A stretch of DNA of 64,000 nucleotides from an uncultured Prevotellaceae bacterium (GTDB lineage Bacteria > Bacteroidota > Bacteroidia > Bacteroidales > Bacteroidaceae): NCBI GenBank assembly GCA_900317305.1, contig ONGG01000008.1, positions 59,215 to 123,214 of the forward strand. Reading direction: 5' to 3'. Below the pieces are notes generated by a model. That model searched no databases. It saw nothing but the letters and a program-made list of their open reading frames with translations, and had not been told where the DNA came from. Positions within the stretch are counted from its first letter, which is position 1, and each line of letters begins with the position of its first letter. Position numbers and translations under genes: made by a program. Positions 29,794 to 53,502 of the stretch are shown piece after piece.

Positions 29794-30444
29794 ATGAAGG
29801 ACATAGCAGTATATGGAGCTGGCGGTTTTGGAAAAGAAGTTGTTTGTTTGATTCATGAAATCAACGAATATTTTCCAGCTAGTGAGTCGTGGAATTTTAT
29901 AGGTTATTTTGATGACAATAAGCCTAAAGGATATCAAGCTGAATACGGAACAGTATTGGGTAGTCTAGACGAACTGAACAGTTGGTCAAGTCCACTTGCC
30001 ATTGCCATTTCCATTGCTCAACCAGCTAATGTCAAGACCCTTTCAGAACGAATTGTTAATCCCCTCATCTCATACCCCAACTTGATAGCACCCGACGTTA
30101 TATTCTATGACAGGGATAGCGTGAAATTTGGAAAGGGAAATATTGTGTGTTCCAGTTGTTTGTTCAGCAGCGATGTGATTGTTGGTAACTTTAACATTTT
30201 CAACAATTTTATTTCTGTTGGGCATGATGACATCATTGGAAACTTCAATTCCATAATGCCTGCAGTCCGGCTTTCAGGAAATGTTACTATTGGTGATTGC
30301 AACTTTTTAGGTGTCTCGTCGATTATCTTACAATCTTTCAAGATTGGAAATTATACAACAGTTGGAGCTGGTAGTGTAATTATGCGAAAGACTAAAGATG
30401 GATGCACATATGTTGGAAATCCCGCAAAAAAAATAGAATATTAA
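29794..30444 (+). CDS. NeuD/PglD-like hexapeptide acyltransferase
   Basis: 216-residue sugar O- or N-acyltransferase of the NeuD/PglD type. An N-terminal Rossmann-like part (MKDIAVYGAGGFGKEVVCLI) is followed by a left-handed beta helix made of hexapeptide repeats (FGKGNIVCSSCLFSSDVIVG, ISVGHDDIIGNF with the likely catalytic His, GNVTIGDCNFLGV, GNYTTVGAGSVI) and the usual GNPAKKI end. In this family the donor is acyl-CoA or acyl-ACP and the acceptor an amino sugar nucleotide. It lies 16 bases before an ACP gene, which suggests an acyl-ACP donor here. First gene of the plus-strand operon. Confidence 0.88.
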   Translation: MKDIAVYGAGGFGKEVVCLIHEINEYFPASESWNFIGYFDDNKPKGYQAEYGTVLGSLDELNSWSSPLAIAISIAQPANVKTLSERIVNPLISYPNLIAPDVIFYDRDSVKFGKGNIVCSSCLFSSDVIVGNFNIFNNFISVGHDDIIGNFNSIMPAVRLSGNVTIGDCNFLGVSSIILQSFKIGNYTTVGAGSVIMRKTKDGCTYVGNPAKKIEY

Positions 30445-30460
30445 TAATCAACACAATAAT

Positions 30461-30691
30461 ATGGAAATCAAAGATTTTATTGAGAATTTTGCAGATATCT
30501 TCGACGACACTGATGTTTCTACCTTTAAACCAGAAACTGAATTTCGCGAGTTGGACGAATGGACCTCAATGCTTGCTTTGTCAACCATGGCTATGGTAAG
30601 TGAGGAGTATGATGTTGAACTCTCTGCCGACGAGATGCGCAAATCTCAAACTATAGAAGACTTATTTAATTTCACAAAATCTCATATGTAA
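30461..30691 (+). CDS. acyl carrier protein (module A)
   Basis: 76-residue acidic acyl carrier protein. The phosphopantetheine attachment Ser is about residue 36 in ELDEWTSMLAL, where the usual DSL is replaced by TSM. It is similar over its length to the ACP at 51456-51683 (FIENFADIFDDTDVS versus FIKNFAEQFDDTDAS). Its stop overlaps the SDR start by one base, implying coupled translation. Expected to carry a short acyl chain for the neighbouring ketosynthase and reductase. Confidence 0.85.
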   Translation: MEIKDFIENFADIFDDTDVSTFKPETEFRELDEWTSMLALSTMAMVSEEYDVELSADEMRKSQTIEDLFNFTKSHM

Positions 30692-31431
30692 TGGAGAATC
30701 TTTTGTCTCTCCAAGGCAAGCATATTCTGTTAACAGGGGCATCCTCTGGCATGGGAAAGGTGTTTGCCCAGATGATTGCCGCACAAGGAGCAAAATTGTC
30801 ATTGCTTGCCCGTAACGAGGAACGTCTCCACCAGACTTTAGAAACAATGGATGGCGATGGACATGAGATATTTGTTTGTGATCTCACAAATGAAGACATG
30901 CTCAAAGATGTTGTCTCCAAGATAGACAAGTTGGATGGCATCGTACTATGTGCAGGAATCAACGATTTTGTCCCCCTCAAGTTCATCAAGCAATCCAATA
31001 TCAGCAAAATGTTTCAAACCAACTTTTTTTCTCATCTGATATTGGTGCAGATGCTGGTGAAAAAGAAGCTTGTGAACAAAAATGCCTCTATAGTATTTAT
31101 CTCTTCTCTATCTTCCATGCTAGGTGTACAAGGGACACTTCTTTATGCTTCTTCCAAAGCCGCCATCAATTCCGCAGTACGAGTGATGGCTTCAGAATTA
31201 GCCAATTTGAAGATTCGTGTAAATGCCATTTGTCCAGGTATAGTGAAGACCGAGATGCTTTCCAATACGAATATCAACGAGGATACTTTTACCAAGCAAG
31301 AGTCACAATATCCTTTAGGCCTTGGAACGGCCAATGATGTGGGCAACGCCGTGTTGTTTCACCTGTCAGACCTCAGTCGTTGGCTTACCGGGCAATGCAT
31401 GATTCTAGATGGCGGTTTTACGTTAAATTAG
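30691..31431 (+). CDS. FabG-like SDR, ketoacyl-ACP reductase (module A)
   Basis: 246-residue short-chain dehydrogenase/reductase. NAD(P)-binding TGASSGMGKVFAQMI near residue 13, NAG-equivalent CAGINDF, catalytic Ser in IVFISSLSS and Tyr/Lys in LYASSKAAINSA, and the C-terminal WLTGQCMILDGGF typical of FabG. It most likely reduces a 3-ketoacyl group made by the next gene, KAS III, to a 3-hydroxyacyl group on the ACP. Coupled to the ACP by a one-base overlap and 6 bases from the ketosynthase. Confidence 0.88.
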   Translation: MENLLSLQGKHILLTGASSGMGKVFAQMIAAQGAKLSLLARNEERLHQTLETMDGDGHEIFVCDLTNEDMLKDVVSKIDKLDGIVLCAGINDFVPLKFIKQSNISKMFQTNFFSHLILVQMLVKKKLVNKNASIVFISSLSSMLGVQGTLLYASSKAAINSAVRVMASELANLKIRVNAICPGIVKTEMLSNTNINEDTFTKQESQYPLGLGTANDVGNAVLFHLSDLSRWLTGQCMILDGGFTLN

Positions 31432-31437
31432 TAATCG

Positions 31438-32487
31438 ATGGCAACTATAAAATATAATAATGTGGGTATACGAGCCATATCAGCTTGTGTTCCACGTCAG
31501 ATAGTATACAATAAAGACTTAGGCTATCTTATTCCTGAGGAAGAGATAGAAAAGACCATCAGCAACATTGGCGTCGTTGAGCGTAGAATAGCTGAAGATG
31601 GAGTGTGTGCATCGGATTTGTGTTTTAAGGCAGCACTCCAGCTCATGGAAGACAACGACATTGCTCCTGAGAGTATTGATGTTTTGCTCTTTATGAGTCA
31701 AACTTCCGACTATCGCATCCCAGCCACCGCACCCATTTTGCAACATCGTTTGGGATTGTCTATTGACACTCTCTGTCTAGATCTTACTTTAGGATGCTCT
31801 GGATATGTCTTTGCATTGTCAACTGCTTTTGCCTATGCCTCAATGGAAGGTATTAACAGGGTTTTGCTACTTGATGGTGAGACATTCTCAAAAATCGTGA
31901 ACAAGCGCGACAAGGTTGACTGGCCTCTATATGGCGACGGAGCCACTGCCACACTGATAGAAAAAGGAGACTTCGGAACGTCCACATTCATTCTCAGGTC
32001 AGATGGTTCAGGCAAAGATGCTGTTATCATACGCGATGGAATAAGAAATACCATTACCACAGAATCTTGTGTGGAGAAAGAAGAAGAAGACGGCAACATC
32101 CGCACAGGTCTTGAAGTGTTCATGGATGGTATGGCCGTATTTAATTTTGCGATGAAACGAGTACCTAAGAGTATTAAGGAGATTTTGGAAATCAATAGCC
32201 TCACCATGAATGATATTGATTGGCTTGTTTTTCACCAAGCCAACAAATTCATGACCGACTTTTTTATCAGGAAGTTGAAATTTGATGCCACAAAAGTGCC
32301 ATATTGTATTCAAAAATATGGGAATACAAGTTCTACATCGGTACCTCTGACCATTGTATCAGAGCTACACGACAAGCTTAAAGACGGCGACCGTCTAGTA
32401 ATGAGTGGGTTTGGTGCTGGGCTAAGCTGGGGAACAGCCCTGCTTTCATTCAATAATTGCAAAATATCTCCAGTGATAGAATATTGA
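31438..32487 (+). CDS. 3-oxoacyl-ACP synthase III (FabH-like), module A
   Basis: 349-residue thiolase-fold ketosynthase with the full KAS III triad: Cys120 (LTLGCSGYVFAL), His266 (VFHQANKFM) and Asn296 (KYGNTSSTSVP), and the C-terminal GFGAGLSWGTALLSF. It would condense a short acyl-CoA or acyl-ACP with malonyl-ACP, or join two carrier-bound units. It is a second FabH-type gene in the window, and its neighbours are not general fatty-acid genes, so a dedicated pathway is likely. Confidence 0.9.
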   Translation: MATIKYNNVGIRAISACVPRQIVYNKDLGYLIPEEEIEKTISNIGVVERRIAEDGVCASDLCFKAALQLMEDNDIAPESIDVLLFMSQTSDYRIPATAPILQHRLGLSIDTLCLDLTLGCSGYVFALSTAFAYASMEGINRVLLLDGETFSKIVNKRDKVDWPLYGDGATATLIEKGDFGTSTFILRSDGSGKDAVIIRDGIRNTITTESCVEKEEEDGNIRTGLEVFMDGMAVFNFAMKRVPKSIKEILEINSLTMNDIDWLVFHQANKFMTDFFIRKLKFDATKVPYCIQKYGNTSSTSVPLTIVSELHDKLKDGDRLVMSGFGAGLSWGTALLSFNNCKISPVIEY

Positions 32488-32513
32488 TTAAACCTCTCTG
32501 ATTAGAACATATT

Positions 32514-32927
32514 ATGCTTGAAGGCTTTCGGTTTCATCATATCGGAATAGCATGCTTCTCCATAGTGGAAAGCAAATTATTCTATGAACAGTTGGGGTAT
32601 TTGGCCACTGAAGTTCAAGATGATCCTATTCAGGACATACGTATTTGCTTTTTAGAAAAGCCAGGCATGCCAACTCTTGAATTGCTTGCCCCCATCGATG
32701 AGAAGAGCCCGGTGAACAGGATACTACAATCACAAGGAGTTACCCCATACCACATATGCTATGAGGTGGATGATTTTGATCAAATCCTCACTCAATTACG
32801 TAAAGAGGAGAAATTTGTTCGTGTAAGCAAGCCTGCCCCGGCATGTGCCATCGCCAATCGACGCGTGGCTTTTATGTTCAGAAAAGACGTGGGACTTGTT
32901 GAACTAGTTGAAAAGGAGGCAAAATGA
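32514..32927 (+). CDS. VOC (glyoxalase/methylmalonyl-CoA epimerase-like) protein
   Basis: 137-residue metalloprotein of the vicinal oxygen chelate superfamily, closest in look to methylmalonyl-CoA epimerase. Metal ligands are visible as His in FHHIGIACF, Glu in TLELLAP, His in TPYHICYEV and Glu in GLVELVE, so the site is intact. It overlaps the FkbH-like gene start by four bases. It could epimerise the alpha carbon of a hydroxyacyl or acyl thioester made by this operon; the substrate is not known. Confidence 0.85.
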   Translation: MLEGFRFHHIGIACFSIVESKLFYEQLGYLATEVQDDPIQDIRICFLEKPGMPTLELLAPIDEKSPVNRILQSQGVTPYHICYEVDDFDQILTQLRKEEKFVRVSKPAPACAIANRRVAFMFRKDVGLVELVEKEAK

Positions 32928-34498
32928 AATATTTTATTTTCAGGAACCAAACCATAGAACCATTTTTCGGTGAGAATGAGATAGGTTTTTCTGGGTATGA
33001 TGACATCAGCAACATACCTGCAGATGTCGAACGCTTTATATGGTTTTATCAAGTTCCATTCAATTTTAACAGCCAGCAATTGTCTCTTGAAGTGGGCACA
33101 TACATTGACAAGCTTCGTATGGTCGTCTCACAGATCGAAGGTCGTGAAATATGGGTTTTCACGCTTTCCAATCTATTTAGATGCCAGATGATTGGCAATG
33201 ACTATCAAGTAGCCGAGGCTATCAACTCCTTCAATAGCCAAGTGCTGGAGTTATCCAAAGAGAACTCCAACATTCGGATTATCGACTTTTCCGAGTTCAC
33301 CAGTTTGTACCCCTCAGAGCTATTGGTCAATTGGAAATTCTACTTCATTTCCCAGACCCAATTGAATACTAAGCTGGCAAAAGACTTTTCCATTTGGTTT
33401 TCAAAAAAAGAAGAAGAGTTGGCCCTTAAGCGCAAAAAATGCCTTGTGCTCGATCTCGATAACACGTTATGGGGTGGCATTCTTGGAGAGGATGGTGTCA
33501 CTGGAATCAAAATTGGGGGCGATTATCCAGGCAAGGCATTTCTATATTGGCAGCAAGCGCTTCTTGAATTAAGCAAGACAGGAGTTATTCTTACCATATG
33601 CAGTAAGAACAATGAACAAGACGTGCTGGAGGCTTGGGAGAAGAATCCCTTTATGGTGCTGCGCAAGGAGCATTTTAGTGCATGGCGCATCAACTGGCAA
33701 GATAAAGCCACAAACATTCAGGATTTAGCCCAAGAGCTCAATATAGGTCTCGACAGTATGGTGTTTGTTGATGACAATCCCACGGAAAGGGCTCTCATTG
33801 CCCAAATGCTTCCCATGGTAAGTGTTCCTGATTTTCCCTCAAAGCCATTCGAATTGATTGCTTTTTTCCGCCAGATGGTCGACCACTATTTCCGAATCTA
33901 CGCCATTACCAACGAAGACCGCAAAAAGACGGACCAATACAAAGCGAATGCACAACGTGCTGCTGAGCGCAGCAAATTCGTTGACATGGACTCATATCTT
34001 CGCAGTTTGGAAATTGAGCTGTCTATTTTACCTGCCGACGAGTTCAATATTAGTAGAATTGCCCAAATGACCCAGAAAACGAACCAATTTAACCTCACGA
34101 CCCATCGTATGACAGAGCAAGAGGTGAAAGACAAGTTGTCTGAGGGATGGCTAATTTATTGTCTAAGTGTAAGCGACCGTTTTGGTGATAATGGAATCAC
34201 CGGTGCCATTTTTATAACGCCTACCCATCACATTGACAATCTGCTATTGAGTTGTCGTATTTTGGGCAAAGGCATCGAGCAAGCATTCGTTTCCTTTATT
34301 CTTAATCGTCTTCATGCAGTTGGGGTTGAATCAGTGACCGCCACATATCTCCCGACAATAAAGAATGGCCAGACCGCAGATTTTTATGATCGTTTAGGGT
34401 TTAAGTCAACACGTCATGACTCAGCAGGCAAAGATTATCAAATCAAATTGACTGAAGACTTACCAATAAAAGACTATTATCAAATTAAAACAAAATAA
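32924..34498 (+). CDS. FkbH-like HAD-IIIC protein (glyceryl-ACP synthase type)
   Basis: 524-residue FkbH-type protein. An N-terminal SGNH-like part (1-165) is followed by a HAD domain with Asp177 and Asp179 in LVLDLDNTLWGGILGEDG, ITICSKNNEQDV-like ICSKNNEQD, and FVDDNPTERALIAQMLP, then a C-terminal GNAT-like domain (RIAQMTQKTNQFNLTTHRM). In polyketide pathways these enzymes take 1,3-bisphosphoglycerate, remove phosphate and load a glyceryl unit on an ACP. A dedicated ACP gene starts 3 bases downstream, which fits. Related HAD-IIIC genes also occur in O-antigen loci, where the product is often untested. Confidence 0.88.
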   Translation: MKYFIFRNQTIEPFFGENEIGFSGYDDISNIPADVERFIWFYQVPFNFNSQQLSLEVGTYIDKLRMVVSQIEGREIWVFTLSNLFRCQMIGNDYQVAEAINSFNSQVLELSKENSNIRIIDFSEFTSLYPSELLVNWKFYFISQTQLNTKLAKDFSIWFSKKEEELALKRKKCLVLDLDNTLWGGILGEDGVTGIKIGGDYPGKAFLYWQQALLELSKTGVILTICSKNNEQDVLEAWEKNPFMVLRKEHFSAWRINWQDKATNIQDLAQELNIGLDSMVFVDDNPTERALIAQMLPMVSVPDFPSKPFELIAFFRQMVDHYFRIYAITNEDRKKTDQYKANAQRAAERSKFVDMDSYLRSLEIELSILPADEFNISRIAQMTQKTNQFNLTTHRMTEQEVKDKLSEGWLIYCLSVSDRFGDNGITGAIFITPTHHIDNLLLSCRILGKGIEQAFVSFILNRLHAVGVESVTATYLPTIKNGQTADFYDRLGFKSTRHDSAGKDYQIKLTEDLPIKDYYQIKTK

Positions 34499-34501
34499 AC
34501 A

Positions 34502-34723
34502 ATGGAAGAGCAAATTATTAAAATAATGGAAGATGTACTTGATGAACAAGGTATCAACTTGGAAAGTACACAAGATTCTTTAGAAAACTGGAATTCCCTT
34601 CGTCAACTTAATCTTGTGAGTGAACTTGAAGACGCATTTGATGTTGAGTTCGACCCCGAGGAAATTGCCGAAATGAAGAGTGTAAAGGCTATAATTGATT
34701 TTGTCAGAATGAAGCAAGAGTAA
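34502..34723 (+). CDS. acyl carrier protein paired with FkbH-like protein
   Basis: 73-residue acidic ACP with the attachment Ser about residue 32 in LENWNSLRQLNL. It is not a close match to the other two ACPs in the window. Starts 3 bases after the FkbH-like stop, so it is the likely acceptor of the glyceryl (or similar) unit. A gap of about 296 bases with no recognised element follows before the glycosyltransferase genes. Confidence 0.87.
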   Translation: MEEQIIKIMEDVLDEQGINLESTQDSLENWNSLRQLNLVSELEDAFDVEFDPEEIAEMKSVKAIIDFVRMKQE

Positions 34724-35019: not shown

Positions 35020-36177
35020 ATGAAGGTACTTTATTCTACACAAAGTATTGTTGAATACGATGGCCATCACTACTACAGCAATCCCGTCCAAGCCACCTAC
35101 AAGCGATACCTGACACTAGGAGATGAAATAACGGTATTCTGTTATCAGAAGAATGTTAGTGAGCCCAAAAGTGATATGGTGGACAAGGGAGCGGTGAGAT
35201 TTGTCGCCGCTAAGAAAGTAAACTCACTTGGAGCTCTCATTAAGCGTGTCAGCCGCCATAACGATCGGTTGGCTGAACAGTTGGTAAAAGAGACAGATGT
35301 ATGTGTGGCGCATGTCCCTTGCGGACACAGCAGCCAGGTGGTCAAGTATGCGCGGAAATATGGCAAGCCCTATTTGTTAGTTGTTTGCGGGTGTCCATGG
35401 GATGCCTTGTGGAACTACAATTGGAAAGGCAAACTTATGGCCCCACTAGCCTATCTGTCATTACGCCGTTTAATGAAAGATGCTTCATATTCCATTTATG
35501 TCACTAAAGAGTTTCTGCAGCGGCGCTACCCTACGAAAGGACGATTCATTGGTTGCAGTAATGTAAACATTAAGACAGGCATCAGCGAGGTTTTAGAAAG
35601 GCGACTTCAGATCATTCACCAACTAGAGGATGAGAAGCGCACATTACGTATTGGCACTGCGGCTGCAATCGACGTACCTTATAAGGGACAGGAATATGTT
35701 ATTCGTGCTCTTGCCAGACTTCACTCTAAAGGCATTGACTATGAATATCACCTCATCGGACTCGGCTCTGATGAACGGCTGCGCGACATTGCCCAAAAAG
35801 AGGGTGTCGGCGACAGGGTGTTCTTCCATGGTTCTCTACCACATAATGAGGTGCTTGCATTCATGGATGATATAGACATCTACGTTCAGCCCAGCAAGCA
35901 GGAGGGGCTGCCACGAGCCGCCATTGAAGCCATGAGCCGTGGATGTATGTGTCTTGGATCTAGGGTAGCAGGCATACCTGAGCTACTTGAAAATGACTAT
36001 CTGTTTGCCAAGGGTGATGTTGAACGTATTGCAGAAATACTTGGCAGCGTGACATCAGATAGACTTGAACAGCAGGCACGGCGGAACTTTGTTACCTCAA
36101 TGGATTATGACCGCGATGTGCTGAACAAGAGAAGGACAGAATTCATAGAAGAATTCAAGAGAAGCTATTCAAAATAA
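35020..36177 (+). CDS. GT4 glycosyltransferase
   Basis: 385-residue GT-B fold glycosyltransferase family 4 enzyme. The C-terminal donor domain is clear: RIGTAAAIDVPYKGQEYVIR, FHGSLPHNEVLAFMDDIDIY and the EX7E motif in QPSKQEGLPRAAIEAMSRG. It would transfer a sugar from a nucleotide sugar to the lipid-linked repeat unit on the cytoplasmic face. Followed after 16 bases by a CDP-glycerol-type transferase. Donor and acceptor unknown. Confidence 0.88.
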   Translation: MKVLYSTQSIVEYDGHHYYSNPVQATYKRYLTLGDEITVFCYQKNVSEPKSDMVDKGAVRFVAAKKVNSLGALIKRVSRHNDRLAEQLVKETDVCVAHVPCGHSSQVVKYARKYGKPYLLVVCGCPWDALWNYNWKGKLMAPLAYLSLRRLMKDASYSIYVTKEFLQRRYPTKGRFIGCSNVNIKTGISEVLERRLQIIHQLEDEKRTLRIGTAAAIDVPYKGQEYVIRALARLHSKGIDYEYHLIGLGSDERLRDIAQKEGVGDRVFFHGSLPHNEVLAFMDDIDIYVQPSKQEGLPRAAIEAMSRGCMCLGSRVAGIPELLENDYLFAKGDVERIAEILGSVTSDRLEQQARRNFVTSMDYDRDVLNKRRTEFIEEFKRSYSK

Positions 36178-36193
36178 TCTTAATAATGATAAT

Positions 36194-37381
36194 ATGGCAT
36201 CTGCATCGCTCATCAACAAAGTCAAGTATTCGCCTTTGCTCTACGCTGTATATTACTATGCAGGTAGTCTTGCTATCAAACTGCTAAAACTAATGTTGCG
36301 GCCTGATGAGAGGTTGATACTCTTTTCGAGCTATAGCGGGAAGCGGTATGACGATTCACCCAAGGATATCTACGAAGCTATGCTACACGATCACCGTTTT
36401 GATGGTTATAAACTTGTTTGGGCATTCTCCGAACCCGAAAGATATAATATAGGCAGGGCACATAAGGTAAAAGTAGACACGCTATCCTACTACAAGGCTG
36501 CGCTAAAAGCTAGGGTGTGGATTACCAATGTCAGCATGACACGTGGTCTGAGTTTCAAGGGTATCAACACCTTTTCACTGAATACGTGGCATGGTGTACC
36601 CATAAAGTTTATAGGTAGTGATGTACGCAACAGCGATGGTGGTACGTTCCGGATAAAGGGTAAAGTCAAAACCATCGACATACAATTAGCTCAAGGGAGT
36701 TACGAAAAGTCTATCTACCCAAGGGCCTTTGGATTAGACGAGAAACAAGTCCTGGTAACAGGATTGCCACGCAACGACTCGCTTGTGTATGACAATTATC
36801 CCGAAAAGATAGCCATTCTGAGAAAAGAATTAGGCATTCCAGAAGGTAAAAAAGTGATACTATATGCCCCTACATACCGCGAATATGAGAAAGACAAATG
36901 GAGAAATTGTATAATGAAACCACCCTTTAACCTGAAGCGATGGAAAGCGCAACTGAGTGAAGACTATGTTCTGATGATTAGAGCTCATCAGGAAGTGGTC
37001 AAGGTGTTGAATTTGGAGGAGGACGAATTTGTCAGAGATGCTTCTTCATTTCCGGTACTGAACGACCTTCTATTAATTACCGACATACTCATTTCAGACT
37101 ATTCGAGTATCATTTTCGACTTCTCGATACTTAGTAGACCCATCATCTGTTATACCTACGATTTTGAGAGGTATAAACAAGCAAGGGGTATGTACTTTGA
37201 TATCCGCAAAGAACTACCAAGTGCTGACACCGAAGAAAGACTAATTTCAATAATTAAATCTAATAACCAAAACAAAATGAGGGAGGTTGTAATAAGGTTC
37301 AGAGACAAATACATTCAGGAATATGGCAATTCCTCGCAGAGAGTGCTTGATGTGGTTTTCAATGCCCTAAACAAGCATTAA
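36194..37381 (+). CDS. CDP-glycerol glycerophosphotransferase family protein
   Basis: 395-residue TagB/TagF-like enzyme, a GT-B fold transferase that moves glycerol- or ribitol-phosphate (or a sugar) to a growing polymer. Family motifs NTWHGVPIKFIGSDV, LVTGLPRNDSLVY, KKVILYAPTYREYE, MIRAHQEV and DILISDYSSIIFDFSIL (the HGTP-like His and the final YSS/FD) are intact. N-terminal amphipathic segment suggests membrane association. Last gene of the plus-strand set; a related enzyme is encoded convergently at 39117-40310. Confidence 0.88.
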   Translation: MASASLINKVKYSPLLYAVYYYAGSLAIKLLKLMLRPDERLILFSSYSGKRYDDSPKDIYEAMLHDHRFDGYKLVWAFSEPERYNIGRAHKVKVDTLSYYKAALKARVWITNVSMTRGLSFKGINTFSLNTWHGVPIKFIGSDVRNSDGGTFRIKGKVKTIDIQLAQGSYEKSIYPRAFGLDEKQVLVTGLPRNDSLVYDNYPEKIAILRKELGIPEGKKVILYAPTYREYEKDKWRNCIMKPPFNLKRWKAQLSEDYVLMIRAHQEVVKVLNLEEDEFVRDASSFPVLNDLLLITDILISDYSSIIFDFSILSRPIICYTYDFERYKQARGMYFDIRKELPSADTEERLISIIKSNNQNKMREVVIRFRDKYIQEYGNSSQRVLDVVFNALNKH

Positions 37382-43850: not shown

Positions 43851-43853
43851 ATA

Positions 43854-44255
43854 TTATTCTTTTATTCTAAAGTTGTTTACTCTAAAAATCCGACATATAG
43901 GAGCTAGTTTATCCGATAGGCAAACAACCACTTCCAGCACCTTCTCGTAGATAAATCCGAATAGGTTGGCGACGGTAATGAACGTCTCCACGAAAAACTT
44001 CCCCATATTCTCAGCAATGGTGAATTCAAGGGAATCCATCAACATCTCCTAGAACAGTCCACCAATGGCCTCATTGACGTTGAACCTCTTGACAAGGGAA
44101 AGAATGATATCCAGCAAGGCGACTATAGAAGTATGGGCGAAGTGTTCCGCTAAGTCCTTGGCTTGGCACTTTCCCATTCCGAACGATACTTTGTACTTTT
44201 GTGCTTGGGCATAGAAGTAAAGTTTCTTTTTGTAGAACACCTCAATGTTACACAT
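43854..44255 (-). pseudogene. DDE transposase C-terminal remnant with nonsense codon
   Basis: About 134 codons in one frame split by an in-frame TAG at 44049-44051. It reads CNIEVFYKKKLYFY, FGMGKCQAKDLAEHFAHTSI, then ILSLVKRFNVNEAIGGLF and, after the stop, ANLFGFIYEKVLEVVV. The NIEVF...GKCQAKD pattern is that of IS4-type DDE transposases near their C-terminus. It starts inside the frame of the acyltransferase gene, marking an old insertion point. Confidence 0.65.
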
Positions 44256-45766: not shown

Positions 45767-46106
45767 TATATTTCTGTTTTAAAGTCCGCTATACTCCCTG
45801 AACAGACTGATTAATATCTATCGCAATTGACTACAAAAGAAAAACGGGGTGTCTACCTGTTGCCATGTTTTAACAACCAATTCGAATTAGGTAGTTTCGA
45901 ATAGTAAAAACAAAGCATCAACAACGCATTTCAAAAAGTAGCGCTCCCTTATATTATCACCTTAACCTTAATACAATATGGCCTCGGTATAGGTTAGTAA
46001 ATACAAAGGTTTCAATATCCTCTTTCATACACAAGATGTCAAAATTGACTGCTTACCACAGTTTGCACAGATTTCTCTTCGGAAAGAGTGGAATGCCAAG
46101 AGGTGT
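45767..46106. other. intergenic region, no gene seen
   Basis: 340 AT-rich bases between the flippase stop and the truncated acyltransferase start. No coding frame, strong hairpin or convincing promoter is recognised. Confidence 0.5.
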
Positions 46107-47663
46107 TTACTTCATTTTATTTTTTATCAGTTTCTTCCTCACCATTTCAACAACTTTTTGGCGCATTGGTTTGTCCATTCCAAGAAACCAACTAGAACAG
46201 ATGACGGATATGATGCTGACTATAGTGATAGCACAGAAGGAGAACACTATGCTGTCATGATTCTTGAGCCAAAAATAGAAAAGAAGTGGTAATGGCAAAG
46301 ATGCCAGTGTCACTTTCAGACATGGAAGGAATACAGAAAAGATGTCACGCCATGTGTAATCTACTATCTTGATAACGAGAATGGGCTTAATAATAAGACC
46401 TAACAACATATATGTAACCAAACTCGCCCAAGAGAGGGCTACAGGACTGCATCCCATCTTGAATAATAAATATACAATAGGGAATTGGATAAATCCCAAT
46501 GTGGGAGATATTAATGCGTTCTCACGTATTTGTCCTTTAGCATACAATGCTCTATAGAATGAGGTGTCAAAGACTTGAAAGAGACTCTGGATGATGATGA
46601 TTTGCAAGAATATCACTGCGTATTCTGGAACAATTCCTAACCAAAGTTGTAACAACTGCTGTGCAACCAAACATATCGGCAGTGCCAGGAGGTACATCAT
46701 ATAATAGCTGAACCGTGTGGTCTGTAACAGCAGTCGCTTCGATCCCTCATAGTCTTTCACGGCATAGAGCTTCACTATCTGCGGATTAACCGCTGTCTGA
46801 AAATTGGTCACAAAATGTTGGGCAGCCATATTCACTTGAATTGATATGGCACGTGCCGCGACTACAGTTGGCGCAAAGAAAATGTTCAACAATATTAAAA
46901 TGCCCTGACTGTTTAATGCAATTGAACCATTGGCAAAGAGTGACCAACCTGAGAAACCTGCTATCTCGCGGAAGATTTTCTTGTCGATAGAGAATCGTAA
47001 ATGCGTCTCTTCGAAATGGTGTATGCAATAGATGCGGTAGAAGATGATGATGCCAACCTGTAGCAGACAGAGCAGTGTGGCATAAAGCTTCAACTTGTCG
47101 ATGTTGCCAATCAATAAAAGATATACTATTAGAAGTTTTGCAACAGCATCAAAAATACTTACATATGCATAAACACCCATCTTTTCATGTGCTATGATAC
47201 TAGCATTATATGGAACCTGTGTAAGTGTGACGAAAGCGGTAATGATTGAAAGGTGGAATGTGAATACTGCAGCTTCAAGCCTGTCGGCTGGAATTATCAA
47301 TTTATGGTAGAGGAACCATAATCCTACTGTTTCTGCAATGATTGCAATGATGGTGGCCAACAAAACATGAGCAGTCAGTGTAGTTGAGAAAACACGCTTC
47401 AACTTCTCCATGTTACCTTCTCCGAGACAATATGTCAGAAACCGTGAGGAACCTGTCCCCAAAGCATTGTTGACAAAAGCAAGAAAACCCACAATTCCTC
47501 CAACAGATTTGTATATGCCATAATCGTCTACACCTAATATTTGCAATATCACACGCGAGGTGTACAATGAGATTACCATTGTCACCATCATGCGGAAGTA
47601 CAAAAACATAGTGTTCTTCGCTATCGTCTTGTTGTTGGTTTTTCCAGCCATATTATCGTTCAC
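46107..47663 (-). CDS. wzx: Wzx-type polysaccharide flippase
   Basis: 518-residue inner-membrane protein with about 14 predicted helices, of the MOP/Wzx group that flips lipid-linked repeat units to the periplasm. Opening KTIAKNTMFLYFRMMVTMVI, then LGVDDYGIYKSVGGIVGFLA and ALGTGSSRFLTYCLGEGN are typical of Bacteroidota capsule flippases. Starts 11 bases before the stop of the upstream acyltransferase. An internal start at codon 5 (MAGKTNNK) is also possible. Confidence 0.87.
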   Translation of the reverse strand: MNDNMAGKTNNKTIAKNTMFLYFRMMVTMVISLYTSRVILQILGVDDYGIYKSVGGIVGFLAFVNNALGTGSSRFLTYCLGEGNMEKLKRVFSTTLTAHVLLATIIAIIAETVGLWFLYHKLIIPADRLEAAVFTFHLSIITAFVTLTQVPYNASIIAHEKMGVYAYVSIFDAVAKLLIVYLLLIGNIDKLKLYATLLCLLQVGIIIFYRIYCIHHFEETHLRFSIDKKIFREIAGFSGWSLFANGSIALNSQGILILLNIFFAPTVVAARAISIQVNMAAQHFVTNFQTAVNPQIVKLYAVKDYEGSKRLLLQTTRFSYYMMYLLALPICLVAQQLLQLWLGIVPEYAVIFLQIIIIQSLFQVFDTSFYRALYAKGQIRENALISPTLGFIQFPIVYLLFKMGCSPVALSWASLVTYMLLGLIIKPILVIKIVDYTWRDIFSVFLPCLKVTLASLPLPLLFYFWLKNHDSIVFSFCAITIVSIISVICSSWFLGMDKPMRQKVVEMVRKKLIKNKMK

Positions 47664-48777
47664 CTGTCAATATTCCACATAGTGACGGTGTAAATCTTCT
47701 TAGAAAATAATAGAGGGTAATACATATTATGACCGCCATCACAGGAGCTGCTATGTATGAGATAGTCATTTGCAATGCGGTAGACTGTCCGAATATCACA
47801 CTTGACACTTTTTTGCAAGTAGGTAATATCAGAATGGTGTGAGAAAGATAGATGAAGAATGAACTCCGCGAGAGTAAGGGGCTTGACATTATCTGTAATT
47901 TGTTATTTCTAACAAGGTAAATAGCAATATTCATAAGTGTAATGACTCCAAATATCACATATACAGGGTAAATGAGGTTGCCCAATTCGGTCTCATGACC
48001 ATTCAACATTGTACATGCCATCCAAGTAACCAGTGCGATAGCTAAGAATGGGTAACACCATCTTTGAGTATATTCCAATGGATTGATATTGTTCATCTTC
48101 ATATAGGCTCCCGTTCCAAAGAACAGAAAAGCCATTGTCGATAATTCAGGTATCGGTATAAACACGCCTGATATATAACAAAGCAAGAACATGACAATTC
48201 CCCATATCCTTAGTTTCTTGAATACATAGTATAACACTGGTGCACAAATAACTACAACCATTAAATCACGCAAAAACCAGAGAGGAATTAGATAGGGGCT
48301 TGATGCAGGAATTGCCCACCCCACCCAGTTTACCCTGTCGAGGTTCCACATCTGACAGTCCCAATATAAATGGACACAACCATTATCCTCGAAGAAAGCC
48401 AAGACATCGCTCCATTCGCCATGAAACAGTTTCCCTTTGAGAGTGTTCAGAATACTGATTGTGTTCCATATCAGGAAGGGAACAAGCAGCGTTTTTACCC
48501 GCCTTTTTAGTTTCTGCATAAACTTCTCCACATTCCATGTTTCAAGACCTTTGAAAAACAAGTATCCTGAAATGAAGTAGAATGTCGGTACACATACATG
48601 AGTCAGGACTTTTGAGATGCTAACCCTAAAGATGTTATAGCAATCCATCCCTGACAAATGATGGATATTCAAAGCCCCATAGTCGAAGGGGGTGCCAAAA
48701 CTATGTATGAACACAACCCCGACTATTAATGGGAATCGAAGCCAATCAAAGACCTTAAATATTTGTTGGGTTTGCAT
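47653..48777 (-). CDS. AT3-family membrane acyltransferase
   Basis: 374-residue integral membrane acyltransferase (acetyl or similar group to sugar). Motifs: FDWLRFPLIVGVVFIHSFGT with the active His, VPTFYFISGYLFFKG and LWFLRDLMVVVICAP. About ten transmembrane helices. I chose the start at 48777 because the longer frame from 48807 would overlap the aldo/keto reductase by more and adds no match. Its end overlaps the flippase start. Confidence 0.87.
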   Translation of the reverse strand: MQTQQIFKVFDWLRFPLIVGVVFIHSFGTPFDYGALNIHHLSGMDCYNIFRVSISKVLTHVCVPTFYFISGYLFFKGLETWNVEKFMQKLKRRVKTLLVPFLIWNTISILNTLKGKLFHGEWSDVLAFFEDNGCVHLYWDCQMWNLDRVNWVGWAIPASSPYLIPLWFLRDLMVVVICAPVLYYVFKKLRIWGIVMFLLCYISGVFIPIPELSTMAFLFFGTGAYMKMNNINPLEYTQRWCYPFLAIALVTWMACTMLNGHETELGNLIYPVYVIFGVITLMNIAIYLVRNNKLQIMSSPLLSRSSFFIYLSHTILILPTCKKVSSVIFGQSTALQMTISYIAAPVMAVIICITLYYFLRRFTPSLCGILTGER

Positions 48778-48785
48778 AAATGTGA

Positions 48786-49700
48786 TTACAATATGCTGAA
48801 ATCGCAATTGTCGGGGTCATAACGCAGGCGGCTGTTAATATTGATACCGTCGATGGCCTTCATGTCATCTGCATCCAACTCGAAGTCGAAGATATCAAGA
48901 TTTTCCTGCTGGTGCTTGGGAGTCAGTGAACGCACTAAAGGGATGACACCATTCTGAACATGCCAGCGCAGGATAATCTGAACGAAAGTCTTATTGTACT
49001 TTTTCTCCAAACGCTTCAACAGGGGCAAACGAACCAATCGGTCATCATAGCGGGCTATAGGGGTGTAAGCCTCCACTATGATGCCCTGTTCCTTATAATA
49101 CTGTAAGAGAGGTTTCTGCGTGAAGAGCGGATGAATCTCGAATTGTCCAACTTCGGGACGATGTTTGCAAATCTCAAATATCTCCTCCAGATGGTGCTGG
49201 TGGCAGTTGGCCACACCAAGATGCTTCACCAGTCCCTCGTCCTTCAGTTTCTCCATCTCGCGCCATGTGTCGAGAAAAAGGTCTGTAACAGGCCAGTGGA
49301 ACTGAAGCAGGTCAACATAATCAACGCCCATGTTATGGATGAACGTTATAAACTGCTCACGCACCTTATGATCACGCTGTGCTCCATTGCTGACGCGAGT
49401 AGTAATGAACAAATCTTCGCGCGGCACGCCACTCTTGCGTATGGCTTTGCCTAACAGCTTTCCATTGCCGTATGCCGCGGAATAGTCTATCAGGCGATAG
49501 CCCATCTTAAGGGCTTTGGAGATAGAACTCACATAGGAAATGCTCATAATCTTATTACGATAGAGTTTATTCTCCACCTTAAAAATAAAAAAGGAGAGAC
49601 CAGTTCTCCTTTTTTTCATCTTAGGGGAATAGCCCATTCCACCAGGGCCAAAGCCTATCTGAGGGATTGCACCTCCTCTCAACATCTCACTTAGTTCCAT
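48786..49700 (-). CDS. aldo/keto reductase with Arg at the catalytic Lys position
   Basis: 304-residue TIM-barrel NADPH-dependent reductase. Asp and Tyr of the tetrad lie in RLIDYSAAYGNGKLLGKAI and His in LLQFHWPVTD; but the usual TK motif reads FITTRVSNG, with Arg (codon CGC) in place of Lys. An unusual N-terminal stretch with many Lys (PKMKKRRTGLSFFIFKVENK) is present. KxRS-type cofactor region is IPLVRSLTPKHQQENL. It is 3 bases after the KAS III stop, so it belongs to the acyl module; it might reduce the acyl-thioester product or a sugar. Activity may be altered. Confidence 0.85.
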   Translation of the reverse strand: MELSEMLRGGAIPQIGFGPGGMGYSPKMKKRRTGLSFFIFKVENKLYRNKIMSISYVSSISKALKMGYRLIDYSAAYGNGKLLGKAIRKSGVPREDLFITTRVSNGAQRDHKVREQFITFIHNMGVDYVDLLQFHWPVTDLFLDTWREMEKLKDEGLVKHLGVANCHQHHLEEIFEICKHRPEVGQFEIHPLFTQKPLLQYYKEQGIIVEAYTPIARYDDRLVRLPLLKRLEKKYNKTFVQIILRWHVQNGVIPLVRSLTPKHQQENLDIFDFELDADDMKAIDGININSRLRYDPDNCDFSIL

Positions 49701-49703: not shown

Positions 49704-50702
49704 CTAAAACTTTAAAATTGTTCCACCCCAACTGAGACCAACGCCAAAGCCACTAATCATCACCTTGTCACCAGCCTTTATTGTTTGTTTATCTATACAA
49801 TCCTTCAATCCAATAAGGACTGTTGAAGAGACTGTATTGCCTGTAATGGCCAGATTTACATAGAACTTATCCTTTGGAAGGACACAAACCTTGCGGATGG
49901 TATTGAGCATAAACTTATTGGCCTGATGGAACACATAATAGTCAATCTGGTCTTTCTTGATATGGTTTTTCTCTAAGATTTGAGTCATCATGGCAGGTAC
50001 AGCATCGAGGGTGAAGTTGAAGATAGCGCCTCCGTTCATATAGAGATAGTCGTCATACCAGATATGACCTTCATCATCTTCCACAAACTTCCCTGTAGCA
50101 GTCTTTTGTCTTGCCGCGCCACTCTTCACAATCAGATTGTTGGCTCCGCTGCCATCTGTGCCCAGAGAGAACTCACCAATTTCTGCAAAGCCATCAGTAG
50201 AGATGAGACAGGCTGCAGCTCCATCGCCGAAGATAGATCGGTTGCTTTTGTCTGATGGGTGCAGATACTTATTATAAGTCTCTGCTGTCAGTAGTAGCAC
50301 GTTCCTAGCAATGCCTGCTGCAATCAAGCCTTTGGCCATAGCCATGCCATAGATACAGCCGGAGCATCCAAGATTATAGTCGAATGCGCCTGCCGAAGTG
50401 GGTATGCCTAATCTATCTTGGAGCACACATGCTGTTGATGGAAGGAAATAGTCTGGACTTTGCGTGCAGAGCATGAGGAAATCTATAGTATTTGGATCTA
50501 TCTGATATTCCTCAAAAAGCATTCGTGCAGCTTTTTCAGCCATGTCGCCAGCCGTTTCATCTGCTGCTGCAAGATGTCGAGCATCCACGCCCACCTTCTG
50601 GGCAACCTTTTCCACGCTCCACTCCGGGAAATCGCAGACAAGTTCCTCATTTGTTACCACCTTTTCAGGCAGATAATATGATACCGCTTTGATAAATGCC
50701 AT
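49704..50702 (-). CDS. 3-oxoacyl-ACP synthase III (FabH-like), module B
   Basis: 332-residue KAS III with Cys113 (YNLGCSGCIYGM), His259 (YVFHQANKFM) and Asn289 (AITGNTVSSTVL), plus GFGVGLSWGGTILKF at the C-terminus. Same family and same gene order as the plus-strand gene at 31438 but clearly diverged. It starts 4 bases after the SDR stop. It would start or extend a short chain on the ACP at 51456-51683. Confidence 0.9.
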   Translation of the reverse strand: MAFIKAVSYYLPEKVVTNEELVCDFPEWSVEKVAQKVGVDARHLAAADETAGDMAEKAARMLFEEYQIDPNTIDFLMLCTQSPDYFLPSTACVLQDRLGIPTSAGAFDYNLGCSGCIYGMAMAKGLIAAGIARNVLLLTAETYNKYLHPSDKSNRSIFGDGAAACLISTDGFAEIGEFSLGTDGSGANNLIVKSGAARQKTATGKFVEDDEGHIWYDDYLYMNGGAIFNFTLDAVPAMMTQILEKNHIKKDQIDYYVFHQANKFMLNTIRKVCVLPKDKFYVNLAITGNTVSSTVLIGLKDCIDKQTIKAGDKVMISGFGVGLSWGGTILKF

Positions 50703-50706
50703 AGAA

Positions 50707-51456
50707 TTATCCCAAATTACCCCCCCCAGATATCTTCACGTTACTGCTTGTCATCCAGGCTGATGCATCAGAAAGCATATAAACAGCAAGGTAAGCAATG
50801 TCGTTTGGTGTGCCATAACGCTTCAAAGGGTATTTCTGCTCGTCTTCCTTCAGTTTTTCTTCGTCTGTACCATCTGCCAATATGAGGTCTGTCCAGACCA
50901 TGGAAGGACTGATACAATTCACACGTATCTTCCTTGGTGCGAGCTCTAATGCCAAGCAATTGGCGTATGAGATAATGGCACCTTTGGAGGCGCTGTAAAT
51001 GGAATTACCCACACTACCCGACCATGAGGCTATGGACGCAATGAAAACGATGGAAGCACTCTTATTAATCTTCTTTTGACGCAACAACTCTGCTTGCAAC
51101 ATGACAGGTGCTTTGAAATTAACATCCATCAACTGATTGACATTGGAGTCCGTTAGATCCTTGCATGGTATACGCTGACCCAAACCTGCACAATGCACCA
51201 CACCATCAAGTTTGGGCAGAGCCCCTACTAATGATGTCAATGCAATGGCATCTGTCAAATCGCCAGGCATGATGATGCAACTTTCAGGTTCCATCTGCAA
51301 GGACGTTTCCTGAAGTTTTGCTGTATTACGCCCATTAGCAATAACCTTTGCGCCCATCTTGGAACACGTGATGGCTATGCCTCTTCCAATGCCGGAAGAT
51401 GCTCCTGTCACCAAGATTGTCTTGCCCTCTAGAGAGAAGGGGTTGAATGTTACCAT
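50707..51456 (-). CDS. FabG-like SDR, ketoacyl-ACP reductase (module B)
   Basis: 249-residue SDR. TGASSGIGRGIAITC cofactor motif, HCAGLGQRI, catalytic Ser in IVFIASIASWSG and Tyr/Lys in SIYSASKGAIIS. The C-terminus WMTSSNVKISGGGNLG is FabG-like. Start codon overlaps the ACP stop by one base, as in module A. Likely reduces the 3-ketoacyl-ACP made by the downstream KAS III. Confidence 0.88.
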   Translation of the reverse strand: MVTFNPFSLEGKTILVTGASSGIGRGIAITCSKMGAKVIANGRNTAKLQETSLQMEPESCIIMPGDLTDAIALTSLVGALPKLDGVVHCAGLGQRIPCKDLTDSNVNQLMDVNFKAPVMLQAELLRQKKINKSASIVFIASIASWSGSVGNSIYSASKGAIISYANCLALELAPRKIRVNCISPSMVWTDLILADGTDEEKLKEDEQKYPLKRYGTPNDIAYLAVYMLSDASAWMTSSNVKISGGGNLG

Positions 51457-51683
51457 TATTTTGATGAAATGAGGTTAAAGAGGTCTTCCACAGTCTCACA
51501 CTGACGGATTTCTTTACCGGTAATGGTCTTGCCATATTGAGTCTTTGCCAATGCTATAACACTCATGCCAATGAGTGAAGACCACTCTTCCAGTTCATGA
51601 AATTCTGTGGATGCGATTATTTCAGAAGCATCGGTATCATCAAATTGTTCTGCAAAATTCTTAATAAATTCGTTCAATTCCAT
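51456..51683 (-). CDS. acyl carrier protein (module B)
   Basis: 75-residue acidic ACP, attachment Ser about residue 36 in ELEEWSSLIGM. It aligns along its length with the module A ACP (30461). The start at 51683 is chosen because longer in-frame starts run into the upstream gene. It lies 25 bases downstream of the FrhB-acyltransferase fusion. Confidence 0.87.
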   Translation of the reverse strand: MELNEFIKNFAEQFDDTDASEIIASTEFHELEEWSSLIGMSVIALAKTQYGKTITGKEIRQCETVEDLFNLISSK

Positions 51684-51708
51684 AATTGTATGATTTTGAT
51701 GTTGTAAA

Positions 51709-53502
51709 TTAATATTTCCATAGAATATCCTCGTCGACAACCTCGGCTGGATGTCCCGAGGCAAGTGAGTAAGCTGGCACATTACGAATGACCAGCGACA
51801 GGGCACTTATGATAGCACCATCGCCTATCTTCACACCTGGCATTACAGTACACTGTTCTGTGAGCCATACCTTATCACCGATAATTACAGGGCGCGTGTT
51901 CTTATAGCCCTGACGGTTCATGTAGTGAGAACCATTGTTGTCTCTAATGGTAATATGACGACCTAACATGGTATTTTTACCAATTTCTATCCTTTCTCCA
52001 CAAATAATAGTAGCACCTATGTTAGTAGTGCCACCGCCACCAAACGAAAGAGTCGCATTGGGAAACACTTCAATATCAGAACCGTAGCCTATTATTGTTT
52101 TTCCATAATAACGAAGAGTCGCATTTTTATCTACCAGCAATCTGGTTTCTAGCTTTGATTTCATGAATTTTTTGTTTCCAAGAATCAGGATTCCTTTTTT
52201 GATAATCTTGGCATCTTTTTTAATTTCGATAGTACAATGAGGTGTAGGCAATATAAAATTACCATGCACTATTTCACCTAGAGTGTTATATTTGAAAAGT
52301 TGGTAGAGAGCAGTAGGGTTAAGCTGTGTCTTATTCACAATAAACCTGATTCCCTTCAGTATTTTCTTTATTCTTGCTCCCTTACCTACCTTTCTGGATA
52401 TGATATACTTCTCTGCAATCTGTATGAAACTCATTGTGTCAAGATCAGCAAAGAATTCTTCTCGATTTACTTTGGGTGGGTCAACAGAAAGGTTTAAAGA
52501 CCTGTTGCCTGCTTCTATACTATTAAAAGGAACAGGTACGTAATTGATTCGCTTCTTAATTTGTTCAAAGTAAGCTTCTCCCTTCTTCGAGTTGATCATA
52601 ACTAATGAAGTTCCTAGGTCTTTCTCCAGCGCTTGATCAACATTTTCGATTCCCCAGAAATCAGCAAGAGTAATGTCTGCTATACGTGGATATCCTTTGA
52701 ATTTGCAATCATAACAAGAAGGGCGACAATAAACACCAGTACGAAGATAGCCTTTAGTAAAATTACTTTGGTCTTTTGTCTCGTAATATGCTTTACCATT
52801 TTCTAAGATAACTTTCTGAGTCAGATTACGCCAACCATATTCCTTAGACTTCGCTTTGCAATAAACGACCTTTGAACCATAACGTTCTTCGTATGAATCA
52901 AGATATTTACGCCATACTTTAGGAGAGTTAATGCCTCTACAAATATAATCTACGATTACAAGGTTATCATAATCTTTTCTCAAAAACGCTCTTAAAGCAG
53001 CCATCTGACATGGCGAACCACAAACGAGAACCTTTTCCCCTGCTTTCAACAAGTCTCTTACATTCTTAAAAAATCCGTCTAGATGGCTTTGAAGATATTT
53101 GCTACTGCGAAGTTTGGGGAGGTCTTTTTTATCATGAGAAATATAATGACGAACCGAAAAGTCATCATTGAAAATGGCGCCACCGACATATCCATCACTT
53201 TTATACATGGCTTCTGCAAGTGCGGAGAACAGGCCACCTGAAGTTGAATCAAAAACTACCTCAAGATTCTTATGCTCCGCTGCATAGCAAACAGACTGTG
53301 GCAGATCGTTCTTTTTTAGCTCATTCACATTGATAATAGGGCAAACTTTCTCACAAAGCCCACAGTCAACGCATTTCGACCCATCAACTTCTGGGTACCA
53401 AAAGCCCTCATTATCAGTTATGAAAGAAATGGCATTCTTGCTACAAACGTCACCGCATGCGTTACAACCACAGCAATCAACTTTATTCTTTATCTGAATC
53501 AT
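51709..53502 (-). CDS. FrhB-like iron-sulfur protein fused to hexapeptide acyltransferase
   Basis: 597 residues with two parts. Residues 1-60 hold two 4Fe-4S ferredoxin motifs (CCGCNACGDVC and CVDCGLCEKVC); up to about 370 is the coenzyme F420 hydrogenase/dehydrogenase beta-subunit-like domain (VCGSPCQMAALRAFLRKDY, IADITLADFWGIENV), a common but unexplained partner in Bacteroidota capsule loci. From about residue 420 a left-handed beta helix acyltransferase follows (GNTMLGRHITIRDNNGSH-like with His, GDKVWLTEQCTVMPGVKIGDG, SLASGHPAEVV). The frame is continuous. In position it replaces the NeuD-like gene of module A, upstream of ACP-SDR-KAS III. F420 itself is not expected in this group, so flavin or ferredoxin chemistry is more likely. 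Confidence 0.85.
   Translation of the reverse strand: MIQIKNKVDCCGCNACGDVCSKNAISFITDNEGFWYPEVDGSKCVDCGLCEKVCPIINVNELKKNDLPQSVCYAAEHKNLEVVFDSTSGGLFSALAEAMYKSDGYVGGAIFNDDFSVRHYISHDKKDLPKLRSSKYLQSHLDGFFKNVRDLLKAGEKVLVCGSPCQMAALRAFLRKDYDNLVIVDYICRGINSPKVWRKYLDSYEERYGSKVVYCKAKSKEYGWRNLTQKVILENGKAYYETKDQSNFTKGYLRTGVYCRPSCYDCKFKGYPRIADITLADFWGIENVDQALEKDLGTSLVMINSKKGEAYFEQIKKRINYVPVPFNSIEAGNRSLNLSVDPPKVNREEFFADLDTMSFIQIAEKYIISRKVGKGARIKKILKGIRFIVNKTQLNPTALYQLFKYNTLGEIVHGNFILPTPHCTIEIKKDAKIIKKGILILGNKKFMKSKLETRLLVDKNATLRYYGKTIIGYGSDIEVFPNATLSFGGGGTTNIGATIICGERIEIGKNTMLGRHITIRDNNGSHYMNRQGYKNTRPVIIGDKVWLTEQCTVMPGVKIGDGAIISALSLVIRNVPAYSLASGHPAEVVDEDILWKY

Follow-up and report, generated by a model that had tools for sequence, protein, structure and literature searches.

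Two carrier-protein-based acyl modules in a Prevotellaceae surface-polysaccharide locus, one with an FkbH-type enzyme and a possible glyceryl-started chain

Two sets of acyl-building genes lie in a surface-polysaccharide locus of an uncultured Prevotellaceae bacterium, within the 64,000-nucleotide stretch of DNA analysed here (the window; contig C22, ONGG01000008.1, positions 59215-123214, in an assembly of 3.68 Mb). The polysaccharide region, at 28-54 kb of the window, has a GC content of 0.34-0.45 in 2-kb steps, compared with 0.48-0.59 upstream of it. Both sets contain an acyl carrier protein (ACP), a FabG-like ketoreductase of the short-chain dehydrogenase/reductase (SDR) type and a FabH-like ketoacyl-ACP synthase (KAS) III. 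Module 1 is a run of seven genes on the plus strand (29794-34723):

29794-30444, plus strand: NeuD/VioB/PglD-type hexapeptide N-acyltransferase, 216 residues, with PglD_N and Hexapep matches above cut-offs
30461-30691, plus strand: extender acyl carrier protein, ACP1 (PF00550)
30691-31431, plus strand: FabG-like SDR ketoreductase (PF13561/PF00106; YxxxK in the translation)
31438-32487, plus strand: FabH-like KAS III of the FkbH-associated clade (PF08541/PF08545; Cys-His-Asn intact)
32514-32927, plus strand: VOC-fold enzyme like methylmalonyl-coenzyme A (CoA) epimerase and glyoxalase I (PF13669; TIGR03081 below cut-off; PDB 2qh0/3hdp)
32924-34498, plus strand: FkbH-type, presumed glyceryl-ACP-forming enzyme (HAD-IIIC; TIGR01686 at 287.3 bits, cut-off 146.65)
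34502-34723, plus strand: second (loader) acyl carrier protein, ACP2 (PF00550), directly 3' of FkbH

Module 2 runs along the minus strand (53502-48786):

51709-53502, minus strand: FrhB/FdhB-like iron-sulfur domains fused to a WcaF/WbbJ-like hexapeptide acyltransferase domain (about residues 440-597)
51456-51683, minus strand: extender acyl carrier protein, 45% identical to ACP1
50707-51456, minus strand: FabG-like SDR ketoreductase (PF13561/PF00106)
49704-50702, minus strand: FabH-like KAS III, of a clade other than that of module 1
48786-49700, minus strand: aldo/keto reductase (PF00248), beside the KAS also in loci L038 and L039

An earlier note on this DNA had described one four-gene module present twice. 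The order ACP, SDR, KAS III that it reported is borne out at 30461-32487 (plus strand) and 51683-49704 (minus strand), and each module has the one-base overlap of the ACP and SDR genes; translation of the module 2 ACP starts at 51683, whereas the listed open reading frame extends 5' to 51806. The ACPs of the two modules are alike as stated (45% over 74 residues, E = 7e-26), as are the KAS III (37%, 5e-68) and SDR proteins (39%, 1e-56), all E-values being those of single comparisons, and the trio is clearly homologous, well beyond chance. The idea of the same four genes twice holds for this trio and fails for the hexapeptide proteins, which share a generic repeat only (E 0.005, again for a single comparison): the enzyme upstream of the ACP is a NeuD-like protein in module 1 and the C-terminal part of a 597-residue fusion in module 2. 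Overlooked at that stage were the VOC (from 32514), FkbH (from 32924) and second ACP (from 34502) genes of module 1, together with a further ACP-SDR-KAS set, the genome's third, which lies on a different contig and has its own FabD-like acyltransferase.

Nor are the two modules duplicates of each other, as the earlier note had proposed. Among 35 modules with one KAS and one SDR, the fraction of module pairs closer than the window pair is 0.51 for the ACP, 0.65 for the SDR and 0.61 for the KAS, and each KAS III has its nearest relative in another genome, at 87% identity for module 1 (L133) and 88% for module 2 (L050). Because the trio distances are mid-range and the closest KAS kin lie elsewhere, a local duplication of one module was rejected.

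The trio recurs as a unit. A profile of the two window ACPs found relatives in 43 of the 201 genomes of the family, and 33 regions were taken from the matches, with weaker ones omitted; one of these overlaps contig C21 of the window's own genome. Genes in all loci were labelled after the reference proteins, from the window and from other loci, that they matched best, such that absence means 'not recognised', and L042, L111 and L112, which are copies of L134, L147 and L163, were excluded from the trees and the distance test. Among 59 extender ACPs (copies removed, loci found via FkbH included), all of which keep the Ser, the next four annotated genes hold a KAS in 52 cases, an SDR in 54 and both in 50. 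When only the 39 ACPs found through the ACP itself are counted (L111 excepted), 34 have a KAS and an SDR within six genes, with FkbH in three of these. Distances among ACP, SDR and KAS are correlated (r = 0.65, 0.46 and 0.50; 0 of 5000 permutations in each case, with the kinship of the genomes uncontrolled), and the random pairing of these genes elsewhere, which the earlier note had named as a test of its proposal, was not seen. The acyltransferase does swap. A recognised hexapeptide acyltransferase stands directly upstream of the ACP in 23 of the 39 cases, and these comprise 14 NeuD-type proteins, four of the type of L070:12002-12640, three FrhB fusions and two LpxD-like proteins, from which we take the acyltransferase to be exchanged around a constant core. 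The whole seven-gene module 1 recurs in L134 (KAS 85%, SDR 81%, ACP 78%, VOC 80%, FkbH 70%, ACP2 68% and NeuD 59% identity), and module 2, including its fusion and aldo/keto reductase, recurs in L038 and L039.

What sets module 1 apart is the FkbH gene and its surroundings. A search with an FkbH alignment returned 33 loci (34 counted with the window), from Bacteroidota by title except for one Fibrobacter, and many originate from rumen samples. An ACP lies directly downstream of FkbH in 33 of the 34, the exception (L159) being cut by a contig end; a VOC gene lies directly upstream in 22, and a KAS is found at most three genes upstream in 25. The DLDN motif is kept in all 34 FkbH proteins and the His/Glu/His/Glu residues in 23 of 23 VOC proteins. 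The nearest PDB entries of the VOC enzyme are glyoxalases or lactoylglutathione lyases by name, with methylmalonyl-CoA epimerases matching more weakly, and an epimerase acting on a glyceryl thioester is our guess for its role.

In a tree of 73 KAS proteins, the 25 that are FkbH-adjacent form exactly one clade (support 99/96). The match between clade and adjacency takes 1 change, compared with a mean of 20.9 when adjacency is shuffled, and 0 of 500 shuffles were as low; L165_7816 was counted as not FkbH-adjacent, another KAS lying between. Where FkbH loci have a second KAS (L135, L137, L138, L158, L164 and L165), it falls outside the clade; for the first five of these, the extra KAS would predict that the acyl chain is longer. 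A search with KAS across 393 genomes of the order listed 65 matches in addition to the window's own (at E 1e-70 or better), and the locus was examined for 29. The two closest in sequence (65% and 54%) have FkbH beside them and belong to the clade; for the other 27 (49% or less) no FkbH was found within about 1.5 kb. A quick tree made after this search placed 27 FkbH-adjacent KAS in one set of 27, although the KAS of L175 is identical in sequence to that of L156, such that L174 is the only new clade member. The match of clade and adjacency is read here as substrate coupling, with the clade tuned to the FkbH product.

The KAS active site is consistent with a working condensing enzyme. Decarboxylative condensation requires Cys-His-Asn in the established FabH mechanism, and this triad is intact in both window KAS III proteins and in all 68 KAS of the four groups tabulated. 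A separate KAS III on contig C64 of the same genome, taken as the housekeeping FabH because of its neighbours, has W/R/R at the positions equivalent to 32/36/151 of Escherichia coli FabH, which we take to be CoA contacts. The FkbH-clade KAS have K or R at position 32 (25/25) and S or N at position 36 (23/25), changes that fit an ACP-bound primer without proving one.

The triad also bears on whether module 1 could be a glycerate-utilisation operon in which KAS III, FkbH and ACP close a tetronate ring. Such an operon has five genes, three of which encode an FkbH-like protein, an ACP and a FabH-like enzyme (PMC7489565), and the same KAS-FkbH-ACP order occurs in Methylosinus and Streptomyces plasmid clusters that also contain polyketide synthases. 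In the four KAS from these clusters, which are presumed to be of the tetronate type, Pro replaces the catalytic His (4/4), and at 22-23% identity they branch apart as a clade of their own, while the window KAS keeps Cys-His-Asn. Module 1 further encodes a ketoreductase together with a predicted sugar N-acyltransferase, and a Pfam scan of 30 window proteins detected no polyketide synthase. We consider a tetronate operon very improbable and have rejected it. A methoxymalonyl-type extender supply was likewise rejected, the dehydrogenases and methyltransferase listed for it in the portion of PMC7489565 available being absent from the genes of module 1.

These observations lead to a proposal for module 1 that we put forward tentatively and with less than even confidence: a chain started from 1,3-bisphosphoglycerate, built without a modular polyketide synthase, in which FkbH and its ACP, a dedicated KAS III clade and a sugar N-acyltransferase would decorate surface sugars with a polyhydroxyacyl amide. 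The substrates and products given here for both modules are in every case predicted from sequence. FkbH would load glyceryl onto ACP2, and KAS III would condense it with malonyl held on ACP1. The SDR would then reduce the ketone and, since glyceryl plus one malonate and one ketoreduction yields 3,4,5-trihydroxypentanoyl, the expected product would be 3,4,5-trihydroxypentanoyl-ACP1. The NeuD-type enzyme may finally amidate the 4-amine of a nucleotide sugar of the bacillosamine type, for which the likely biosynthetic genes lie elsewhere in the genome, an example of such an amide being 3,4,5-trihydroxypentanoyl-Qui2NAc4N. The short acyl group favoured by the earlier note, such as 3-hydroxybutyryl, would suit module 2 as a plain 3-hydroxyacyl, while in module 1 the FkbH, VOC and ACP2 genes point to a glyceryl-started chain. 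Its view that the hexapeptide enzyme places the group on a sugar of the surface polysaccharide also needs revision for module 1, where the presence of a NeuD-type enzyme suggests that a nucleotide amino sugar is N-acylated rather than the finished polysaccharide; the module 2 acyltransferase belongs to a fusion protein.

The same seven genes might instead supply two separate acyl groups, the KAS and SDR making 3-hydroxybutyryl on ACP1 and FkbH making glyceryl on ACP2, for different sugars or for a NeuD enzyme that uses either. Both half-sets exist alone. NeuD lies within two genes of FkbH, without a KAS, in 5 of the 34 loci, in the pattern NeuD-(VOC)-FkbH-ACP, although this would equally follow from the glyceryl-started chain, with glyceryl-ACP as its first unit, and three of these five (L136, L146 and L151) share one NeuD clade; a further four loci have neither KAS nor NeuD, two of them (L159 and L163) being cut by a contig end. 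Conversely, 31 of the 39 extender ACPs have a KAS and an SDR without FkbH, and a plain cassette of this kind serves a 3-hydroxybutyryl amide according to the sections available of PMC3927599. Unlinked pathways would not, however, require that the FkbH-adjacent KAS form a clade of their own with FkbH beside every member examined. The recognised hexapeptide enzyme is also usually single: one occurs among up to seven upstream genes in 16 of the 25 loci with KAS and FkbH, and it is the sole one in 14 of these 16. Overall, two separate groups are a possible but rather doubtful account of module 1.

Several further points weigh against the glyceryl-started chain. Adjacency and co-clading show linkage and fall short of establishing glyceryl as the KAS primer, and FabH-type enzymes normally use CoA primers. 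The KAS of module 2, which has no FkbH, is also changed at the CoA-contact positions, which suits the two-group alternative, and since it shares these changes they cannot be taken as specific to a glyceryl-ACP primer. In 9 of the 25 loci with KAS and FkbH (four of which reach a contig end) no hexapeptide enzyme was recognised upstream. The module 1 NeuD-like protein scores 154.9 bits against TIGR03570, about 6 bits short of the cut-off of 160.8; it matches VioB (PDB 7txp) at 61 bits, and its His144 is invariant in 25 aligned module NeuD proteins (lower-scoring ones omitted). NeuD sorts only weakly by module type, with 9 changes for the KAS and FkbH group compared with a shuffled mean of 11.3 (60 of 500 as low). 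With all module groups taken together there were 11 changes (shuffled 15.2; 1 of 200 as low), and the idea that NeuD acyltransferases are sorted by acyl type was dropped on account of the weak signal.

The acceptor sugar presents a similar difficulty: no DegT-family aminotransferase match was obtained in the window and no initiating transferase was found at its locus, so that the donor sugar of module 1 would come from another contig. The genome has 11 DegT-family matches, of which the five high-scoring ones represent four places outside the window. On contig C26 of the same genome (G000), a LegC/PglE-like aminotransferase gene lies beside a long UDP-GlcNAc 4,6-dehydratase-like gene, both below NCBIfam cut-offs; the PDB matches 1o61/4ztc are presumably PglE, and the pair would, judged from its predicted functions, make UDP-Qui2NAc4N. 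Near FkbH, PglC occurs in 10 of the 34 loci and the PglE-like aminotransferase type in 9. Members of the NeuD family N-acylate nucleotide amino sugars, as described for VioB (PMC3927599) and predicted for the PglD homologue WfpG (PMC6519341), in the parts of these reports available.

Whether module 1 belongs to the polysaccharide at all also has to be weighed, for it could serve a small molecule, or another glycan or lipid, with the polysaccharide genes merely as neighbours. Its strand is opposite to that of the main polysaccharide operon, and in L134 the seven-gene set lies between comEC/ABC-transporter genes and glycoside hydrolases, outside a polysaccharide locus, which also counts against the proposed surface-sugar role. 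In the window, however, a glycosyltransferase and a glycerophosphotransferase-like gene follow module 1. PglC or a PglE-like aminotransferase is present in 12 of the 34 FkbH loci, L146 and L151 have flippase and glycosyltransferase matches, and the set is adjoined by a glycosyltransferase in L153 and by an IspD-like/dehydrogenase/epimerase group in L143. A role outside the polysaccharide seems unlikely.

Module 2 would be the plain 3-hydroxyacyl form: KAS III would join an acetyl-type primer to malonyl-ACP, the SDR would reduce the product, and the fused hexapeptide domain would transfer the 3-hydroxyacyl group. The fusion has a counterpart of 598 residues in L038 and L039. In other loci of the module 2 KAS clade the same place is held by an LpxD-like (L041), a NeuD-type (L043) or another hexapeptide protein (L050), and because these relatives carry hexapeptide proteins there, it is probably through the hexapeptide part of the fusion that module 2 acts; in L052 a nucleotidyltransferase-like gene occupies that place. 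FrhB-like genes also occur near pyruvyl transferase genes in L065, L117 and L118. That both modules are dissociated (type II) acyl-building sets in which a dedicated ACP passes its hydroxyacyl group on to a sugar acyltransferase, with module 1 glyceryl-started, is a reading on which we are evenly divided. The broader claim of the earlier note, carrier-protein-based hydroxyacylation of surface sugars, fits the parts and is documented in other bacteria in the available portions of two reports (PMC3927599, PMC6519341), and two different acyl groups from the two modules are plausible.

The third set of the genome (L006, contig C21, 7155-13944) comprises a FabD-like gene, an ACP, two SDRs, a KAS III, a second ACP, an AMP-binding ligase and an SDR. 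A metallo-beta-lactamase-fold protein is encoded there as well, and weakly similar proteins of this fold recur in other modules. FabD-like genes lie beside the extender ACP in four modules (L006, L061, L139 and L165; the family was checked for L006), which fits malonyl loading. Thirteen modules have an acyl-AMP ligase, with a second ACP directly adjoining in nine and one gene off in a tenth, and the AMP-binding domain was confirmed for two of the ligases. This suggests that the ligase is an alternative starter loader with the same role as FkbH, and a general plan of starter loader and loader ACP, extender ACP with KAS and SDR, and exchangeable acyltransferase. A LuxE acyl-protein synthetase gene, a further acyl-activating gene, lies beside an AMP-ligase match near the FkbH module of L153 (10036-11118, minus strand).

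It should be noted that the short-hydroxyacyl cassette itself is already known, and that its combination with FkbH is new as far as the literature searched shows. To our knowledge, glyceryl-amide sugars are so far known only via Neisseria PglB2. In the viosamine island of Pseudomonas syringae (vioS-vioB-vioR-acp) and in orfB-E of P. aeruginosa PAK, a KAS III, a VioB acyltransferase, a 3-oxoacyl-ACP reductase and an ACP stand together, in a set like that of module 1 with its NeuD-like protein; the P. syringae genes are assigned to 3-hydroxybutyryl-viosamine, and a vioR mutant loses the modified viosamine (PMC3927599, from the text available). Both window modules have a dedicated ACP and SDR ketoreductase beside KAS III, as in that VioS/VioB/VioR/ACP cassette, and in module 2 a WcaF-like fusion stands in place of a NeuD/VioB/PglD-type acyltransferase. 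Unlike module 1, the seven genes listed for the island in the accessible text do not include FkbH, VOC or a second ACP; further, the island contains an aminotransferase, for which the window has no match, and its target is flagellin (PMC3927599). The O-polysaccharide genes wfpC-wfpG of Flavobacterium psychrophilum, also a member of the Bacteroidota, encode two KAS, an ACP, a ketoreductase and a PglD-like acyltransferase whose predicted target is Qui2NAc4N, and the set is predicted to account for the 3,5-dihydroxyhexanoyl amide that nuclear magnetic resonance revealed; in contrast to module 1 there are two KAS genes and a dihydroxyhexanoyl product, and the portion of the report available does not mention FkbH (PMC6519341). 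The tetronate glycerate-utilisation operon resembles module 1 in having FkbH, its own ACP and a FabH-like enzyme, but its KAS releases the polyketide as a tetronate and a polyketide synthase takes the place of sugar genes (PMC7489565, in the part available). Neisseria glyceramido-acetamido-trideoxyhexose (GATDH), made by PglB2, is a bacillosamine-type sugar bearing a glyceryl amide, as would be expected to result from the short NeuD-FkbH-ACP loci, whereas PglB2 is an ATP-grasp/phosphoglycosyltransferase protein for which the text available mentions neither FkbH nor an ACP nor chain extension (PMC11130364). No ATP-grasp domain was found in the module proteins scanned. The literature found on FkbH concerns secondary metabolites and other unrelated topics, and no report of FkbH in glycan loci was found in a search whose coverage excluded most subscription journals.

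Serotype can depend on the short acyl groups of surface sugars, which can also shape how hosts and phages recognise a bacterium. If the proposal for module 1 is correct, the glycerate-loading chemistry of antibiotic synthesis would be reused with a Cys-His-Asn KAS III to decorate Bacteroidales glycans, and there would be an ACP-based route to glyceryl-amide sugars besides that of PglB2. The type of loader, the number of KAS and the acyltransferase might then be read as a code that predicts the acyl group across the Bacteroidales.

Further polysaccharide genes of the region lie between the two modules, and those downstream of module 2 include acyltransferases, a flippase and a glycosyltransferase:

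35020-37381, plus strand: GT4 glycosyltransferase and CDP-glycerol glycerophosphotransferase-like gene, after module 1 (domain matches)
39117-48807, minus strand, as module 2: surface-polysaccharide genes (glycerophosphotransferase-like, Stealth, GT2, pyruvyl transferase, two acyltransferase-3, MatE-type flippase)

The two CDP-glycerol glycerophosphotransferase-like genes of the window (36194-37381; within 39117-41417) and the Stealth gene suggest phosphate-linked units in the polymer. A phosphonate set at 54065-58304 (minus strand), comprising an iron alcohol dehydrogenase, a thiamine pyrophosphate-dependent decarboxylase and a phosphoenolpyruvate (PEP) mutase fused to nucleotidyl- and cytidylyltransferase domains, suggests a hydroxyethylphosphonate-type decoration; its GC content of 0.54-0.56 is host-like, though it lies inside the low-GC region, and only 2 of the 34 FkbH loci, the window and L157, have a strong PEP mutase match. 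An Rfam search of the window gave 0 matches and ARAGORN 0 tRNA genes. Proteins of 130-141 residues with a similar start (M[KE]K..Y.KP.M..E.F.P, judged by eye) are encoded at both ends of the polysaccharide region (window 28843-29265, plus strand; L005:2086-2478 and 2894-3319, plus strand).

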